Position numbers and translations under genes: made by a program. From Lysobacter luteus (GTDB lineage Bacteria > Pseudomonadota > Gammaproteobacteria > Xanthomonadales > Xanthomonadaceae), in the NCBI RefSeq assembly GCF_907164845.1, contig NZ_OU015430.1, positions 734,001-798,000 of the forward strand: a stretch of 64,000 nt of DNA, in the 5' to 3' direction. Within the stretch, counting starts at the first letter, position 1, and each line of letters begins with the position of its first letter. The notes beneath the pieces are model-generated. The model was not told where the DNA came from, made no database searches, and saw nothing but the letters and a program-made list of their open reading frames with translations. Positions 11,850 through 18,891 of this stretch are shown one piece after another.

Positions 11850-12779
11850 CTAGGCCGCGCGCTGCAGCGCCGTCATCCGCACCCCAATGCGTTGCGCCAG
11901 CTCGTGCTCGGAGTACTTGGGCACGAAGTCGTCGGCGCCGACGCGCTCCACCATGGCGTGGTTGAACACGCCCGACAGGGAGGTGTGCAGCAGCACGTAA
12001 AGGCCGCGCAGGGCCGGGCTGCGCCGGATTTCCGTCGTCAGCGTGTAGCCGTCCATCGCCGGCATTTCGATGTCGGAGATGACCATCGCGTAGCGGTCGC
12101 CCGGCGAACGGCCGCCCTCGGCCATCTGCTGCAGGTGCTCCAGCGCCTGGCGGCCGTCCGAGAGCAGCGTGGCACCCAGGCCGAGCTGCTCCAGCACCTG
12201 CCGGATCTGGTTGCGGGCGACGCGGGAGTCGTCGACCACCAGTACTTCATGCGGCACCCCGGGGGTGTGCGGCAGCGCGCTGATGCCGGTGGCATCGCTG
12301 GCACGCGGGGCCGACTCGGCCAACACGCTTTCAACGTCCACCAGCTGGATCAGCTCGCCCTGGTGGCGGGTGACGCCGGTCAGGTAATGGGCGTCGCCGC
12401 CCAGGTCCGGCGGCGGCTGGATGTCCTCGACCGCGATATTGACGATGCGCTCCACTCCGGACACCAGGAAGCCCTGCACCGTGCGGTTGAACTCGGTGAC
12501 GACCAGGTAGCTGGGCTCGGCGCCGTCATGGGCGTGCCCGATCGCACGAGCCAGGTCGAGCACCGCCACGGTCCGGCCGCGCACGTCGGCGGCACCGGCA
12601 AACGCGGAGGGAAGCTGCGGCAGGGTGAACAGCGGCGGCCGCGGGATGACCTCCTGCACCTTGAACACGTTCACGCCAAAAAGCTGACGCGTGCCCAGTC
12701 GGAACAGCAGCAGCGCCAGCCGGTTGTGGCCGGCCAGGCGGGTACGTTGGTCGATGCGGTCCAGCAGGTCACGGCTCAT
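11850..12779 (-). CDS. cheV: CheV-type chemotaxis coupling protein (CheW domain plus receiver)
   Basis: Couples chemoreceptors to CheA and adapts through a phosphorylatable receiver. The start MSRDLLDRIDQRTRLAGHNRLALLLFRLG at 12779 matches CheV proteins; the longer open frame upstream is non-coding. Residues about 20-155 form a CheW-like domain (LFGVNVFKVQEVI, GAADVRGRTVAVLDLARAIG). Residues about 170-300 form a receiver with paired acidic residues in VLVVDDSRVARNQI, phospho-acceptor Asp in MVISDIEMPAMDG, and Lys in DFVPKYSE. Its position before flgB matches Pseudomonas and Xanthomonas, but the cheR that often separates them is absent. Confidence 0.93.
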   Translation of the reverse strand: MSRDLLDRIDQRTRLAGHNRLALLLFRLGTRQLFGVNVFKVQEVIPRPPLFTLPQLPSAFAGAADVRGRTVAVLDLARAIGHAHDGAEPSYLVVTEFNRTVQGFLVSGVERIVNIAVEDIQPPPDLGGDAHYLTGVTRHQGELIQLVDVESVLAESAPRASDATGISALPHTPGVPHEVLVVDDSRVARNQIRQVLEQLGLGATLLSDGRQALEHLQQMAEGGRSPGDRYAMVISDIEMPAMDGYTLTTEIRRSPALRGLYVLLHTSLSGVFNHAMVERVGADDFVPKYSEHELAQRIGVRMTALQRAA

Positions 12780-12786
12780 GGCGAGG

Positions 12787-12813
12787 TTGTCGGCCGTGCC
12801 TGGTGGTTCTTGA
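12787..12813 (-). promoter_or_regulatory. Possible sigma-28 promoter of cheV
   Basis: The minus strand reads TCAA-N15-GCCGACAA, two differences from the FliA consensus TAAA-N15-GCCGATAA with exact spacing. The -10 element ends 8 bases before the cheV ATG, so transcripts from it would be almost leaderless. That makes the call weaker than the other flagellar promoters here. Confidence 0.5.
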
Positions 12814-12859
12814 GCGGCGGATCCCGGTGGCGGAGGGCGGGGCGGTCGCACCGTGGGCG

Positions 12860-12875
12860 CGGCACGCTGCTTGCC
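12860..12875 (+). promoter_or_regulatory. Sigma-54 promoter of flgA
   Basis: The plus strand reads CGGCACG-N4-TTGCC, one base from the RpoN consensus TGGCACG-N4-TTGC, ending 34 bases before the flgA start. With the flgB site it gives the flg block a pair of divergent RpoN promoters flanking cheV. Confidence 0.85.
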
Positions 12876-12908
12876 TGTGTCCCGGCGTATCCCTCTCCGG
12901 AGTCCACC

Positions 12909-13595
12909 GTGCGGCAGTTGTTCCTGCCATTGCTGGTCCTGCCCGTGCTCGCGGTCAGCCTGCTCGTCCTGGCCCTGTACAGCGGGCCCGTGTCGGCGGC
13001 GGGACCGGTCACCCCGCCCGCGGCGATCCGGGCCGCGGCCATCGCCGCGGTCGGCGGCACCGCCGCAAACGCGGAAGCGTCGGTCGACCCCAACCTCAGG
13101 ATGGCCGCGTGCTCGTCGCCGTTGCAGGCCGTGCCGACCAGCGCCCGGGTGGTGCACGTCCGCTGCCCGGACCAGCCGGGCTGGCAGCTCTACGTGCCGG
13201 TGCAGGTGCGTGATGTGGAGCAGGTGCTGGTGGTGACCGGGCCGGTGCAGGCCGGCGAGACCATCACCGCCGACATGCTGGCCATGCGCCGGCGCGACAT
13301 GGCCGGCGCCGGTGACGGCTTCGCCGATGCGGCGGCGCTGGTCGGCCAGACCGCCAACCGCAGCCTTGCCCCTGGTGCCGCGCCGACTGCCGACGACGTG
13401 GTCGAAGGCCCGATGCTGCGCCGCGGCGACCCGGTCGTGCTGGTCTCGCGGGCCGGCGGCATCGAGGTCCGGGTGGCGGGGCGCGCGCTGGGGCGGGCCG
13501 CCCGGGGCGGGGCCATATCGGTTGAAAACCTGCAATCGCGCCGCATCGTCCGCGGCCGGGTGGTAGGGGCTGGCGTGGTCGAGGTCATGCGTTGA
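12909..13595 (+). CDS. flgA: FlgA: P-ring assembly chaperone
   Basis: Periplasmic chaperone needed for FlgI to assemble the P-ring. I choose the GTG at 12909, preceded by CCGGAG, because it starts a clean Sec signal peptide (about residues 1-30, cleavage after GPVSAA). The mature part has two cysteines and the SAF/FlgA C-terminal domain (about 108-228: VLVVTGPVQAGETITADMLAMRRRDM, GDPVVLVSRAGGIEVRVAGRALGRA). The 228-residue length fits. It is divergent from cheV and has its own sigma-54 site. Confidence 0.93.
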   Translation: MRQLFLPLLVLPVLAVSLLVLALYSGPVSAAGPVTPPAAIRAAAIAAVGGTAANAEASVDPNLRMAACSSPLQAVPTSARVVHVRCPDQPGWQLYVPVQVRDVEQVLVVTGPVQAGETITADMLAMRRRDMAGAGDGFADAAALVGQTANRSLAPGAAPTADDVVEGPMLRRGDPVVLVSRAGGIEVRVAGRALGRAARGGAISVENLQSRRIVRGRVVGAGVVEVMR

Positions 13596-13659: not shown

Positions 13660-13968
13660 ATGACGACCAAGATCGACGGCGCAGGCCCGCCCGTGCGCCC
13701 CGCAGAGCTGGCATCGACCGCCGCCACCGCCGTGCGTGCGGGCGAGGAGCGTTCCGCCCCGGTGGCCGCGCGGCCGCCGGCCGACAGCGTCCGCCTGACC
13801 GGCGAGGCTGAGGGTCTGCAGGCCATGCAGCGTGAACTCGGCGCACCCGGCATCGACCTGGCCCGCGTCAACGAGGTCCGTGCCGCCTTGGCCGATGGCA
13901 GCTACCGGATCGACCCGCAGCAGATCGCCACCCGCATGCTGGCGCTCGAGAGCGAGCTGGGCCAGTGA
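13660..13968 (+). CDS. flgM: Anti-sigma-28 factor FlgM
   Basis: Binds and inhibits FliA until the hook is complete, then is exported. The 102-residue acidic-helical protein has the FlgM C-terminal signature (GIDLARVNEVRAALADGSYRIDPQQIATRMLALESELG, about 64-101), with a disordered Ala/Pro-rich N-terminus including DSVRLTGEAE. Start ATG follows CCAGGAGC. It overlaps flgN by 4 bases. Confidence 0.95.
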   Translation: MTTKIDGAGPPVRPAELASTAATAVRAGEERSAPVAARPPADSVRLTGEAEGLQAMQRELGAPGIDLARVNEVRAALADGSYRIDPQQIATRMLALESELGQ

Positions 13969-14330
13969 ACCCCTCGGTCGCACAGCCGGTGACGGCCCCG
14001 GCGGCCGACCCGCTCGACACGCTCGAGCAGGCCCTGCAGGCCGAACGCCAGGCGCTGCTCTCGCACGACGTCGATGCGCTGCTGGATTCCACCCAGGCCA
14101 AGCTGCGCGCGCTGCGGCTGGTCGAATCGCAGCCGTTGCGCGGTAACGACCCGGCCCGGGTCAGCGCGCTGAGCGAGCTCAACCGTGCCAATTCGATCCT
14201 GCTGGCCCGCCGCCGCCGTGAGGTGAATTGGGCCCTCCGCCACCTGGGCCGCGTCGAATCGACGGGCGTGTACGATGCCGGTGGGCAATCGGGCGCACGT
14301 CCGCAGGTGCGCTGCCTCGGAGTGGGATGA
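13965..14330 (+). CDS. flgN: Flagellar export chaperone FlgN
   Basis: Cytoplasmic chaperone for FlgK and FlgL. The 121-residue product starts at a GTG that overlaps the flgM stop, and reads DTLEQALQAERQALLSHDVDALLDSTQAKLRALRLVESQP, the helical FlgN-type core. Sequence conservation in FlgN is low, so position directly after flgM carries much of the call. Its stop overlaps the next start as ATGA, implying coupled translation with the histidine kinase. Confidence 0.88.
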   Translation: MNPSVAQPVTAPAADPLDTLEQALQAERQALLSHDVDALLDSTQAKLRALRLVESQPLRGNDPARVSALSELNRANSILLARRRREVNWALRHLGRVESTGVYDAGGQSGARPQVRCLGVG

Positions 14331-15592
14331 GCGAACAACCCGGAACAACCGCGCCTGACGGCGACTGGATGATCGACCTGCCCTGGGCGCTGGCCGCCCT
14401 CGACACCGCGGTGGCGCTGGTCGACGGCGACGGCCGCGTGATCCACGCCAACGACGCCGCACGCTCACTCGCCTTGCGGCTGGACCCGTCCGCCACCCCC
14501 GAACGCCTGCTGGCGCTGACCACCACCGACGCCGCCTGGCAGGCCGCGCGGCGCGACGGCCAGTGGACCGCCGAGGTCGCGATCGACGACCCGTCGATGG
14601 TGCTCGAGGTCAAGCTCTACAGCGGCCCGGAAGGCCGGGCCGACCGCCGCTTTGCGACCTTCAGCGACGTCTCCGCCCGTTCGGTGCGCGAGGGCGAGCT
14701 GCAGCAGCGCCACGACGAGTTGCAACGCACCTACCGGCGCCTTGCCGGTGCGCAGGAGCAGTTGCTGCAGTCCGAGAAGATGGCCTCGATCGGCCAGCTC
14801 GCCGCCGGCGTCGCCCACGAGATCAACAACCCCATCGGCTACGTCCACTCCAACCTCGGCACGCTGCAGGAGTACACCGCCGCGCTGATGGCATTGATCG
14901 AGGGCTACGCCAATGCGCTGGCTGCCGACGACCCCGCATCCGCCCGCGAGACGATCCGCGGCATGCGCGAGCGGCTCGATTTCGATTTCATCTCCGGCGA
15001 CCTGCCACAACTGCTGGCGGAGTCGCGCGAGGGCATCGAGCGGGTCACCAAGATCGTGCAGGACCTGAAGGACTTCTCGCGGGTCGGGCGCGACGAGCCG
15101 ATGCGGCCGTCCGACCTGGAGCGCGGGCTGGAGTCGACCCTCAACATCGTCTGGAACGACCTCAAGTACAAGGTCCGGATCGAGAAGCACTACGGCACGC
15201 TGCCGCTGGTCGAATGCCACGCCTCCGAGATCAACCAGGTGCTGATGAACCTGCTGATCAACGCCGGCCAGGCCATCGGCGAGCGCGGCACGATCAGCCT
15301 GGCGACCGGCAGCGAGGACGACGAAGCCTGGATCACGATTTCCGACAGCGGCTGCGGCATCCCGGAGGAGGCGCTGCAGAAGATCTTCGATCCGTTCTTC
15401 ACCACCAAGCCGATCGGCCGTGGCACCGGCCTGGGGCTGGCGATCTGCTACAGCATCGTGGCCAAGCACCATGGCCGCATCGAGGTGTCCAGCCGGGTGG
15501 GCGCAGGCACCACGTTCCGGATGGTGCTGCCGGTGCGTCAGCCGGCGTCCGTCGGCGGATCCGACGCGCCGGCCGCAACGCCCGAAGGCTAG
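14327..15592 (+). CDS. Soluble PAS-type sensor histidine kinase, co-transcribed with flgMN
   Basis: A 421-residue cytoplasmic kinase without transmembrane segments. Residues about 18-115 form a PAS-like domain. Residues about 118-150 form a coiled coil ([25 protein letters not shown]). The H box [18 protein letters not shown] has the phospho-accepting His near 164, and an NtrB-like HATPase domain follows ([50 protein letters not shown]). The start at 14327 overlaps flgN; an upstream in-frame start would encode Pro/Arg-rich read-through. Sharing the flgM promoter suggests a flagellar or chemotaxis role. The intact receiver of the convergent gene (15589-17322) is a plausible partner, which is inference. 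Confidence 0.9.
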
Positions 15593-17322
15593 TACGCCGG
15601 CTCGCCGGCCGCGCGCCGCTCGTAGGCGCGGAACGCGGCGTGGATGTGCTCGCGCAGTTCCTCGTCGTTCCACGGCTTGGTCAGGAACCGGTAGATCGCA
15701 CCTCGGTTGATCGCCTCGGTGATGGTGGCCACGTCGGTATAGCCGGAGAGCACCATGCGGATGGTGTCCGGGTGCAGGTCGCGCACGCGGCCGAGGAATT
15801 CGGTGCCGCTCATGTCCGGCATGCGCTGGTCGGAGACGATGACCTGCACCGTGTTGCTGGCCAGCAGGTCGAACGCCTGGCGCACGCTGTTGGCGGTCAG
15901 GATGGTGTAGCCGTCGCGGCGGAACAGGCGGACCAGCGAGCGCAGCACGTTCTCCTCGTCGTCGAGCAGCAGCAGGGTGCGCTCCGGGCGGGTCGCGGCG
16001 AACGCGCTGGGCAGCAGGAACCGCTTGCGCACCAGTTCGTCGAGCTGGTCGGCCGGCAAGGGCTCGCTGAAAATGTAGCCTTGGAAGAAGTCGCAGTGGT
16101 TGCGGCGCAGGAACCCGAGCTCGCCCTCGTTCTCGACGCCCTTGGCGGTGACCTTCATGCCCAGCCGGTGGCCCATCGCGATGATGCCGCGCACGATGGC
16201 GGCGCTGCGCGTATCGCTGGCGACGTTGCGGATGAAGCTGCGGTCGATCTTCAGCCGGTCCAGCGGGTACTGCGCCAATGCGGCGAAGCTCAGCCCGCCG
16301 AGGCCGAAATCCTGCACGGTCAGGGTCGCGCCCAGGGCCTGCAGGCCCTTGAGCGTGTCGAACACCTGGCGCGCGTCGAGTGCCAGCACGTTCTCGGAGA
16401 TCTCGAACTCCATCGCGCTGCCCGGTACGCCGTGGCGGTGCAGCAGCTCGCCGATCCGGTCGGTGCAGTCGCCCTGGGCCAGCATCGAGCCGGCCAGGTG
16501 GACCGACATGCCGAGGTAGTCGAGACCCTGCGCGCGCCAGTCGGCCAGTTGCCGGACCGCTGTCTCGGTGACCCACTCGCCCAGCCGCGCCGACAGGCCG
16601 ACGCGCTCGACGATGTCCATGAAGCGGTTCGGCCGCAGCAGTCCGGTGTCGGTCTGCCAGCGCAGCAGCGCGCCGAAGCCGGTCAGGCCGCCATCGCTGG
16701 CGCTCACCAACGGCTGGTAAACGAGCCGGAACTCGTCCTTGTCCAGCGCCTCCACCAGCCGTCCGGCAAAGCCGTCGCCGGTGGGCGGGCGGGCAGGACG
16801 GCTGGAATAGTGGCCGACTGCGTCGAGGCCTTCCTCCTTGACCCGACGCAGCGCCTGCTCGGCCTTGGCCAGCAGGCTGGCGGCGTCGTGCGCGTGGTCG
16901 GGGTAGACCGCGATGCCGATCGAGATCGTCATCGGCAGGGTGTAGGGCGGGATCGACAACGGGATCTCGAGCGCGTCGCGCAGGCGCTCGGCCAGGCCGG
17001 CGCCGTCGAGCTCGTTGTCTCGGTAGCCCAGCCCGGCGATGAACTCGTCGCTGTTGAGCCGCCACAGCCATGCATCCGAGGGGATCGCCTTGCGCAAACG
17101 CTGGGCGACCGCCGCCAGGGCCTGGTCGCCGATGTCCTCGCCCATGTTCGCGTTGATCGAACGGAACATGTCGATGTCGATGTGCAGCAGCGCCACCCGC
17201 CGCTTGGTGGCACCGGCCGCGGCCAGCGCCGTGGCCAGGTTGGGCCCGTTGGCGCCCAGCCGGTAGACCCCGGTCACGGGGTCGGTGGCGATGCTCCCGA
17301 AATCGTCATAACGCTGCGACAT
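15589..17322 (-). CDS. Degenerate GGDEF-EAL protein with C-terminal receiver domain
   Basis: A 577-residue protein with order GGDEF (about 10-165), EAL (about 185-430), receiver (about 447-570). The cyclase motif GG[DE]EF reads NSDEF. In the EAL domain the signature Glu is Gly (GFGALLRW), the metal-binding DD pair reads QD (VQDFGLGG), and AEGVE reads AKGVE. KIDRSFI and the Glu of FEISEN remain. Catalysis by either domain is therefore unlikely. The receiver looks active: LLLLDDEEN, SDQRMPDMSG, LSGYTD and LTKPWND. A GTG at 17328 is an alternative start. It follows the M28 peptidase gene by 9 bases, and its stop shares CTAG with the convergent kinase. Likely a c-di-GMP-binding or scaffold output protein; function unproven. 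Confidence 0.88.
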   Translation of the reverse strand: MSQRYDDFGSIATDPVTGVYRLGANGPNLATALAAAGATKRRVALLHIDIDMFRSINANMGEDIGDQALAAVAQRLRKAIPSDAWLWRLNSDEFIAGLGYRDNELDGAGLAERLRDALEIPLSIPPYTLPMTISIGIAVYPDHAHDAASLLAKAEQALRRVKEEGLDAVGHYSSRPARPPTGDGFAGRLVEALDKDEFRLVYQPLVSASDGGLTGFGALLRWQTDTGLLRPNRFMDIVERVGLSARLGEWVTETAVRQLADWRAQGLDYLGMSVHLAGSMLAQGDCTDRIGELLHRHGVPGSAMEFEISENVLALDARQVFDTLKGLQALGATLTVQDFGLGGLSFAALAQYPLDRLKIDRSFIRNVASDTRSAAIVRGIIAMGHRLGMKVTAKGVENEGELGFLRRNHCDFFQGYIFSEPLPADQLDELVRKRFLLPSAFAATRPERTLLLLDDEENVLRSLVRLFRRDGYTILTANSVRQAFDLLASNTVQVIVSDQRMPDMSGTEFLGRVRDLHPDTIRMVLSGYTDVATITEAINRGAIYRFLTKPWNDEELREHIHAAFRAYERRAAGEPAY

Positions 17323-17331
17323 GCCCACAGC

Positions 17332-18774
17332 TTACTTGCCGTCGGTCGCTCCGTCGGCCTGCACGCCGCTGCCGAAGTCGCCTTCCGCTGAAGCGGCCAG
17401 GTAGGCGAACACCGCATAGGCGGCGACGTTCTGCGCCAGCGCCGCCGGGTCGATCTTGTCGAAGGTGTCGTCCGGGGTGTGGTGCAGGTCGAAGTAGTCG
17501 CTGCCGTCCTGCGCCAGTCGGGCCCAGGCCAGGCCCTGCGCGGCGAACGGGCTGATGTCCGGTCCCGGGCCGCCCGCGTCGCCGGCGTACTCGATGCCCA
17601 GCGGTGCTAGCACCTCGGCGATCTGCTTCACGGCGTCCTGGGCGTACTCCGGTGCGCCGGTGCTGATGGCGTAGATGCGGCCGGCGCCGAAGTCGCTCTC
17701 GGCGGCGATCTGGTGCCGGCGAACCTCTTCGGCGTACTTCTCCGCGTACGCCTTGCCGCCCCACAGGCCCTGTTCCTCATTGGCGAAGGCGACCACGCGG
17801 ATCGTGCGAGCGGGCGCGGTCGGCAGGTCGCCGATCAGCTTGCCCGCGGCCATGGTCAGGCCGACGCCGGCACCATCGTCCACGGCGCCGGTACCCAGGT
17901 CCCACGAGTCCAGGTGGCCGCCGATCAGCACGACCTCCTGGGGCCTGCTGCTGCCGGTGATCTCGCCGATGACGTTGTGGCTGGTCGCCTCGCCATCCCA
18001 GCCGCAGTCCAGCGCCATGCGCACCGTCACCGGCTTGCCAAGCGCCAGCAGGCGGGTGAGCTGGTCGGCGTCGGGGACCGACAGCGCGGCCGCCGGAATC
18101 GGTTCCAGGCCGTCGTCGAAGCGGGTGATGCCGGTGTGCGGATTGCGGTGCGAATCGGTGCCTGCCGAACGCATCAGGTAGCCGGCGGCGCCCGCCCGGA
18201 TTGCCGCCGACGGGCCGCCACTGCGTACGCGCGAGCCCGGGCCATAGCCACTGCCGTCGCGGGCGCGCTCCATCCGGTAATCGATGAAGGCGATCTTGCC
18301 CGCAAGCGACCCTGCGGGTGCAGCCTGCAACGCGGCCAGGTCGGCGAAGCGTACGACCTCTGCCTCGACGGTGCCGCCGGGGCTGCCGCCCAGCGCGGTC
18401 AGGGTCAGCGGCTGGGCATGGCGCCCGACCACCTGGCCACTCTCGCTGCGGCGCACCCACTTGGGGAAGGTGACCGGTTCCAGCCACACCTTGTCGTAGC
18501 CCAGCGCCTCGAACTTCGCCTTGGCCCATTCGACCGCGCGCGCGTCGGCCTCGCTGCCGGCCAGTCGTGGGCCGACCTCTGTCGTCAGTGATTCGGTGAT
18601 GCGGTAGCCCAGGTCGCTGGCCAGGGCGGTCTCGCGCAGTTGCGTCGCGGTGTCGACGGCCTGCTCCGGGATCCGGGTCTGCGCGCCGGCCGGCGCCGAC
18701 AGGGCCAGCAGCAGGGAGGCGGCCAGGCCGGTTCCCAGTACCTTGGTTCCAAGCACGGTCGATATCGCGCGCAT
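17332..18774 (-). CDS. Secreted M28-family zinc aminopeptidase
   Basis: Exported metallopeptidase of 480 residues. The start at 18774 is preceded by AGGAGA and gives a Sec signal peptide (MRAISTVLGTKVLGTGLAASLLLALSAPAGAQ in parts, cleavage near residue 32). An upstream in-frame start at 18855 lacks such support. A PA-domain-like insert lies around 130-240. The M28 zinc site is visible as GGHLDSWDLGTGAVDDGAG (His, bridging Asp), ANEEQGL (Glu/Glu), ESDFGAG (Asp) and FDLHHTPDDT (His). Likely periplasmic or extracellular aminopeptidase similar to plasma glutamate carboxypeptidase-like enzymes. It precedes the GGDEF-EAL-REC gene closely, which may be operon packing rather than shared function. Confidence 0.9.
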   Translation of the reverse strand: MRAISTVLGTKVLGTGLAASLLLALSAPAGAQTRIPEQAVDTATQLRETALASDLGYRITESLTTEVGPRLAGSEADARAVEWAKAKFEALGYDKVWLEPVTFPKWVRRSESGQVVGRHAQPLTLTALGGSPGGTVEAEVVRFADLAALQAAPAGSLAGKIAFIDYRMERARDGSGYGPGSRVRSGGPSAAIRAGAAGYLMRSAGTDSHRNPHTGITRFDDGLEPIPAAALSVPDADQLTRLLALGKPVTVRMALDCGWDGEATSHNVIGEITGSSRPQEVVLIGGHLDSWDLGTGAVDDGAGVGLTMAAGKLIGDLPTAPARTIRVVAFANEEQGLWGGKAYAEKYAEEVRRHQIAAESDFGAGRIYAISTGAPEYAQDAVKQIAEVLAPLGIEYAGDAGGPGPDISPFAAQGLAWARLAQDGSDYFDLHHTPDDTFDKIDPAALAQNVAAYAVFAYLAASAEGDFGSGVQADGATDGK

Positions 18775-18891
18775 CAGGTCTCCTGCAGGGCCCAGGCCCA
18801 AAAAGAACGAAGCCACGAGCGTAACAACTCGCGGCTTCGGCTTGGGGTGCCTCAAGTCACGCGGCGTTTGCCGCGCTTGGCAGTTCGGCGG

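Follow-up and report, generated by a model that had tools for sequence, protein, structure and literature searches.

A RavR/PdeR orthologue of Lysobacter luteus and the apparent loss of its EAL metal site in a clade of flagellated relatives

The ravR gene and its neighbours

The window analysed here, a 64,000-nucleotide stretch of the Lysobacter luteus genome, carries on its reverse strand a gene for a ravR-like response regulator (15589..17328). The gene has a single open frame, 579 codons long, beginning with a GTG at 17328; an in-frame ATG lies two codons downstream, at 17322. A preliminary description of this DNA had given the span as 15589-17322. Its gene and open frame are confirmed, and its end point is the internal ATG. 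The 579-aa product, assigned from the ORF, Pfam, orthology and a tree, consists of a GGDEF domain (residues 14-167; 16828..17289; PF00990), a pseudo-EAL domain (residues 190-423; 16060..16761; PF00563), and a receiver domain, REC (residues 453-562; 15643..15972; PF00072), all encoded on the reverse strand and all above the Pfam cut-off. Among the 25 NCBIfam matches listed for the protein, none except the general GGDEF domain model is above cut-off. As the preliminary description had stated, the receiver is intact: D456, D457, D500, S528, and K551 are all present, and alignment of receiver residues predicts D500 (15829-15831, reverse strand) as the phosphorylated Asp. By its sequence, then, the protein appears to have the phospho-accepting receiver of RavR and PdeR.

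Convergent with ravR lies a gene for a RavA/PdeK-like histidine kinase (14327..15592, forward strand; HisKA, HATPase_c), the orthologue of the kinase that adjoins Xanthomonas ravR, with 56-58% identity. Further along the forward strand are a flgN-like chaperone gene (13965..14330; PF05130 at E 3e-5, under the curated cut-off), flgM for the anti-sigma-28 factor (13660..13968; PF04316, TIGR03824), and flgA (12900..13595; PF13144, TIGR03170). The flgA start is an estimate; the ORF (11892-13595) exceeds the gene, and FlgA matches its C-terminal part only. A cheV-like CheW-REC gene occupies 11850..12850 on the reverse strand (PF01584, PF00072), again with an estimated start, its ORF running to 13871. 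These flagellar neighbours, flgN, flgM, flgA, cheV, and flgB-E, are as at the Xanthomonas RavR locus. On the other side, an M28-family peptidase gene (17332..18855, reverse strand; PF04389) adjoins ravR where Xanthomonas has ravS.

Sequence comparison identifies the protein as an orthologue of RavR of X. campestris (XCC1958) and PdeR of X. oryzae. Identity to a Xanthomonas RavR (locus L137) is 51% over residues 22-573, and across Xanthomonas it is 51-53% over nearly the entire length, with the same locus and a single tree. Pfam gives the GGDEF-EAL-REC order of RavR/PdeR. The preliminary description had considered a C-terminal receiver unusual; this must be withdrawn, since the receiver is always last in this family and GGDEF-EAL-REC is the normal order for RavR. 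The L137 locus matches the published numbering: RavR D496 when the protein is counted from Met2 of the frame, and RavS H500 and R656 when RavS is counted from Met6. Its RavR also carries GSDEM, the motif published for RavR.

X. campestris RavR is reported to have a degenerate GGDEF domain and an active EAL domain and to be a c-di-GMP phosphodiesterase; RavA is reported to phosphorylate it at D496, and receiver mutants to alter swimming (PMC6707612). PdeR is likewise described as a GGDEF/EAL/REC protein whose phosphodiesterase activity is triggered by PdeK; in X. oryzae its EAL domain is reported to bind the TriP receiver, and its polar localisation to need TriP (PMC6637768). The window protein thus has in common with RavR/PdeR the domain order, the convergent RavA/PdeK gene, the flagellar neighbourhood, the intact receiver, and a degenerate GGDEF domain. 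The loci differ in that ravS and the GGDEF-EAL gene sisP follow ravR in Xanthomonas and Stenotrophomonas (PMC9600515), whereas neither gene is at the window locus.

The EAL metal site across the family

The EAL-domain motifs of the window protein read G219-A-L, S275-V-H277, E309-I-S-E312, Q339-D340-F-G, K360-I-D, and A395-K396-G-V-E. The motif table bears out every motif previously read (NSDEF, GAL, QD, AKGVE) and adds a further change, SVNxS reading SVHLA, with H277 in place of Asn. The metal ligands of RocR are given as E175, N233, E265, D295, D296, and E352, and its substrate residues as Q161 and R179 (PMC7911125). In an alignment against these ligands, four of the six are replaced in the window EAL domain: E175 by G219 (16672-16674), N233 by H277 (16498-16500), D295 by Q339 (16312-16314), and E352 by K396 (16141-16143), all on the reverse strand. 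E265 (E309) and D296 (D340) are retained, as are both substrate residues (Q161 = Q205, R179 = R223). Xanthomonas RavR, which is reported active, keeps E175, N233, E265, and D295, whereas the window sequence lacks three of these, E175, N233, and D295. Because its metal ligands are lost, the protein would not share the phosphodiesterase activity of RavR/PdeR and probably falls outside the enzymatic subgroup, although it is an orthologue by descent.

Of 297 genomes searched in the family, 138 gave a match of 500 bits or more. The alignment holds 96 distinct sequences, from all 43 genomes at 690 bits or more and 40 of the 95 at 500-690 bits, plus 7 sequences scoring under 500 bits and 6 additional named records. 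The Glu of the EAL motif is missing in 45 of the 96 and present in 51. In a quickly built tree, where several long branches including L140 drew warnings, a single branch separates the 45 rows from the rest, so that one change suffices (SH-aLRT 100). Named records among them include Lysobacter, Luteimonas, Vulcaniibacterium, and Thermomonas. Apparently, therefore, this sequence set records a single erasure of the EAL metal site, in a Lysobacter/Luteimonas/Thermomonas clade.

The positions of E175, N233, and D295 are lost in all 45 clade rows and retained in all 51 others. What replaces them differs: S26 A12 G5 N2 at E175, H36 P7 Q1 Y1 at N233, and Q32 G4 A4 R2 M2 H1 at D295. At E352, the first Glu of AEGVE, the clade has K44 R1. 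The columns of E265, E268, D296, Q161, and R179 are unchanged in 45/45. Orthologues with the same residue losses, for which the preliminary description had suggested a search, thus exist, and the losses are not private to the window gene but a fixed trait of the clade. The five receiver residues are unchanged in 96/96.

In the 51 intact-EAL rows the columns of E175, N233, E265, and D295 are invariant, and the remaining two vary (D296: N26 D23 H1 S1; E352: N27 E16 H6 L1 Q1). The Xanthomonas L137 RavR and 26 further rows have Asn at both positions (LDNFG, ANGVE), and Xanthomonas RavR is published as active with its key residues conserved. Replacement of E352 therefore reaches beyond the clade to a RavR reported active (PMC6707612), and residue rules are fallible here. 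In another enzyme, TBD1265, activity is reported to be lost when the E352-equivalent Glu is changed (E703A, cited in PMC12943098). When the clade is set against the 33 rows in which E352 is Asn or His, 15 EAL positions have one residue in at least 90% of the clade and that residue in at most 10% of the 33 rows. K396 is among them, and loop 6 goes from DNFGTGDSS-like to QDFGLGGLS-like.

The GGDEF domain has changed far less. Its NSDEF signature (N92 onward; 17041-17055, reverse strand) departs from consensus at two glycines only. DEF is unchanged, and across the family Ser is found more often than any other residue at the second position (36/45 clade rows, 38/50 other rows). The earlier claim that both domains are degenerate therefore stands for the EAL domain, whose metal site is lost; for the GGDEF domain the degeneration is mild and largely ancestral in the RavR/PdeR family.

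An AlphaFold2 model of the window protein has a mean pLDDT of 82.4 and a pTM of 0.50, so that the arrangement of the domains relative to one another is unreliable. Its best PDB match in Foldseek is the GGDEF-EAL portion of PA0575 (5m3c), and its EAL domain aligns with single EAL domains at target-normalised TM values up to 0.91 (5m1t_A). The fold is thus retained.

Nei-Gojobori estimates of dN/dS for 10 clade pairs are 0.018-0.212 for the pseudo-EAL domain, 0.026-0.200 for GGDEF, and 0.009-0.339 for REC, where the top value comes from a pair (L116/L113) with a dS of merely 0.087. Four intact-EAL pairs give 0.051-0.312 for GGDEF, 0.009-0.132 for EAL, and 0-0.035 for REC. The pseudo-EAL domain is under constraint, although its values taken together point to somewhat weaker constraint than in intact EAL domains. 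Averaged over columns, entropy within the clade is 0.94 for GGDEF, 0.91 for EAL, and 0.38 for REC.

Kinases, FsnR and flagellin in RavR-bearing genomes

The preliminary description had also asked whether orthologues keep the same neighbours. Among clade loci of at least 7.8 kb, an opposite-strand, convergent ravA and flgM both lie within the fetched stretch in 26/32. The exceptions are L125, with ravA only, and five Lysobacter loci whose genomes have RavA and flagellin genes elsewhere. At intact-EAL loci both genes are in the stretch in 38/51, and ravA is on the opposite strand in 42/51. An impression from short stretches, that some Lysobacter have RavR without flagella or RavA, was discarded when whole-genome searches found both flagellin and RavA. 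In most members of genus g45, ravR and ravA are about 2-14 kb apart, and the pair is retained (e.g. G105:C1:3364806-3379769). In four Burkholderiales stretches (L058, L059, L060, L061), a RavA-like kinase gene lies beside an intact-EAL GGDEF-EAL-REC gene on the same strand, and flgM is absent from these stretches; the pairing of RavA with a GGDEF-EAL-REC protein may predate the flagellar linkage.

A link to motility, proposed in the preliminary description, gains from the flagellar neighbours and from the distribution of flagellin. In 80 genomes chosen from the 297, which are related and so are not 80 independent tests, flagellin is found in 55/55 with RavR at 500 bits or more and in 0/25 of the remainder (22 without RavR, 3 with a distant match). 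The three flagellin-negative genomes with a distant match (L170, L171, L172 in G167, G289, G224, all genus g51) have a GGDEF-EAL-REC protein at 357-383 bits and 38-39% identity, with intact EAL motifs and an adjoining RavA-like kinase. RavA is present at 433 bits or more in all 40 RavR-bearing genomes tested; in a 41st genome searched, G129, neither RavR nor RavA was found.

A full-length RavS kinase with PAS-PAS was found neither beside ravR in the window, the window genome having a homologue of the kinase core elsewhere only, nor in any of the clade genomes tested, most of which have a kinase with the HisKA_3-HATPase core of RavS alone. In 8/8 aligned clade kinases, this core has the His and the Arg656-equivalent. 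The window genome has its RavS-core kinase at about 685.9-686.7 kb (G000:C1); the short membrane-anchored kinase with a RavS core in this genome (L177:9880-10746, reverse strand) adjoins, by sequence reading, chemotaxis-like genes (MCP-like, CheB, CheD, CheR). The same genome encodes an orthologue of the LuxR-type regulator FsnR (730,235-730,903), which lies 4 kb away from the flagellin gene (fliC).

Both proteins were searched for in 48 RavR-bearing genomes, at cut-offs of at least 175 bits for the RavS core and at least 240 bits for FsnR. Both are present in 37/48, neither in 10/48, and the RavS core only in 1/48 (G161). Six of the ten genomes without either are from genus g51, and one of the ten, G007, has a completeness of only 72%. 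In these searches neither turned up in Lysobacter concretionis (L044), whose ravR sequence is matched in genome G201. In most genomes the RavS core and FsnR are thus either both present or both absent, and they behave as a unit; RavR is independent of this unit.

Possible modes of action and their meaning

The reading that best fits these results, and one that we consider probable, is that RavR of this clade is a RavA-phosphorylated, non-enzymatic flagellar regulator derived from a c-di-GMP phosphodiesterase response regulator. RavA, with the shortened RavS where it is kept, would phosphorylate D500 of the C-terminal receiver, and the phosphorylated receiver would alter its orientation and that of the pseudo-EAL domain towards one another or towards a partner. 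Expression of flagellar genes, or flagellar assembly, would then be tuned without hydrolysis of c-di-GMP; the EAL domain would relay phosphorylation to flagellar control by contact or by ligand-gated contact. The preliminary description had taken the protein to be probably a phospho-controlled c-di-GMP sensor or scaffold for motility; this is borne out in part, by the lost EAL metal site, the intact receiver and the link to motility, whereas sensing or scaffolding would be putative functions. In X. campestris, RavR without its EAL domain is reported to leave cells without flagella, and a null mutant to swim more (PMC6707612). A lineage without EAL activity would thus have had to rebalance its circuit, and this rebalancing may be visible in the shortening of RavS and in a RavS-FsnR branch that is optional. 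The window genome has 11 EAL domain matches above cut-off, so that the missing activity could be supplied by other phosphodiesterases.

It is possible, though we would lean against it, that the pseudo-EAL domain is a metal-free c-di-GMP receptor in which Lys396 replaces the metal ion, so that RavR integrates phosphorylation and c-di-GMP. The domain fits the pattern of degenerate receptors in the alignment, catalytic residues lost and substrate-contact residues kept: Q205, R223, E309, E312, and D340 are each present in 45/45 clade sequences, K396 is present in 44/45, with one Arg, and the EAL structures that Foldseek matches to the model, 5m1t_A at TM 0.91 (target-normalised) among them, include c-di-GMP complexes. 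LapD, which is reported to bind c-di-GMP, has Lys in its EAL motif (KVL; PMC3032553). Like LapD, FimX, and Filp as described, the window RavR has both domains degenerate and the substrate-contact Arg kept; unlike them, it has no transmembrane/HAMP or N-terminal REC-PAS part, its receiver is C-terminal, and its binding is putative. In X. oryzae pv. oryzicola, XOC_2102 and XOC_4190 are reported to have degenerate GGDEF and EAL domains and to be inactive and c-di-GMP-binding, and the RavR/PdeR homologue XOC_2393 is listed with them as REC-bearing GGDEF-EAL proteins (PMC4823724); the two share the double degeneration with the window RavR, but their motifs differ (QAF, QVL). Against a receptor, other positions are less well kept (Q416 is Leu in 5/45, K360 is Gln in 3/45, and P233 and F236 each give way to another residue in 7 rows), and a Lys within the former acidic cluster could be purely structural. 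The fuller proposal of a metal-free c-di-GMP pocket with K396 for the metal, in a RavA-driven, two-input flagellar switch whose RavS-FsnR branch is optional and lost as a whole, is speculative, and we would give it a modest chance.

RavR might instead be a pure phosphate sink, its phosphorylated form having no output of its own and simply draining phosphate from a RavS-type kinase, which would lower phosphorylated FsnR. RavR is reported to be such a sink for RavS in X. campestris (PMC6707612), competition between RavR and FsnR is reported in S. maltophilia (PMC9600515), and the window genome has both the RavS-core kinase, with its His and Arg656-equivalent, and an FsnR orthologue near fliC. 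However, the role of RavR is not solely to drain RavS, because RavR persists in the 10/48 genomes without RavS core and FsnR, and those tested keep RavA. Moreover, a bare receiver would be enough for a sink, with no need to conserve a 230-residue pseudo-EAL domain. As the whole of its function, this is unlikely. It is very improbable that the EAL domain has kept its phosphodiesterase activity by means of an unconventional metal site: the reported activity of Xanthomonas RavR despite Asn at D296 and E352 speaks for it, but the clade has lost three further ligands, and those three columns vary freely, hydrophobic or small residues included. Decay, the alternative named in the preliminary description, is scarcely credible despite the lost catalytic residues, an EAL dN/dS slightly above that of intact pairs, and intact-EAL orthologues in 51/96, since the frame is open in the 45 clade sequences used, the loss has a single origin and is fixed clade-wide, dN/dS is low, the receiver is invariant, and synteny is kept. 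From these sequences, the clade RavR appears to be a pseudo-phosphodiesterase that selection maintains, and its gene is not in decay.

The RavR/PdeR family, its GGDEF-EAL-REC order, and its degenerate GGDEF domain were already known. What appears to be new is the single loss of the EAL metal site in the Lysobacter/Luteimonas/Thermomonas clade (45/96 sequences); a limited search of the open-licence literature on RavR, Lysobacter, and degenerate EAL domains returned no description of a pseudo-EAL RavR. To annotate ravR as a c-di-GMP phosphodiesterase in Lysobacter-type genomes would probably be wrong. The loss is a dated case, from nature, of a characterised phosphodiesterase regulator turning into a pseudoenzyme, and living relatives still show the intermediate steps: E352 changed to Asn or His in the 33 rows on the Xanthomonas/Stenotrophomonas side, and the remaining site then lost in the Lysobacter clade. 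It also makes testable which of the published jobs of RavR, phosphodiesterase or phospho-acceptor, flagellated bacteria cannot lose. If the two-input reading is true, this lineage would have fixed an enzyme-dead RavR in nature.
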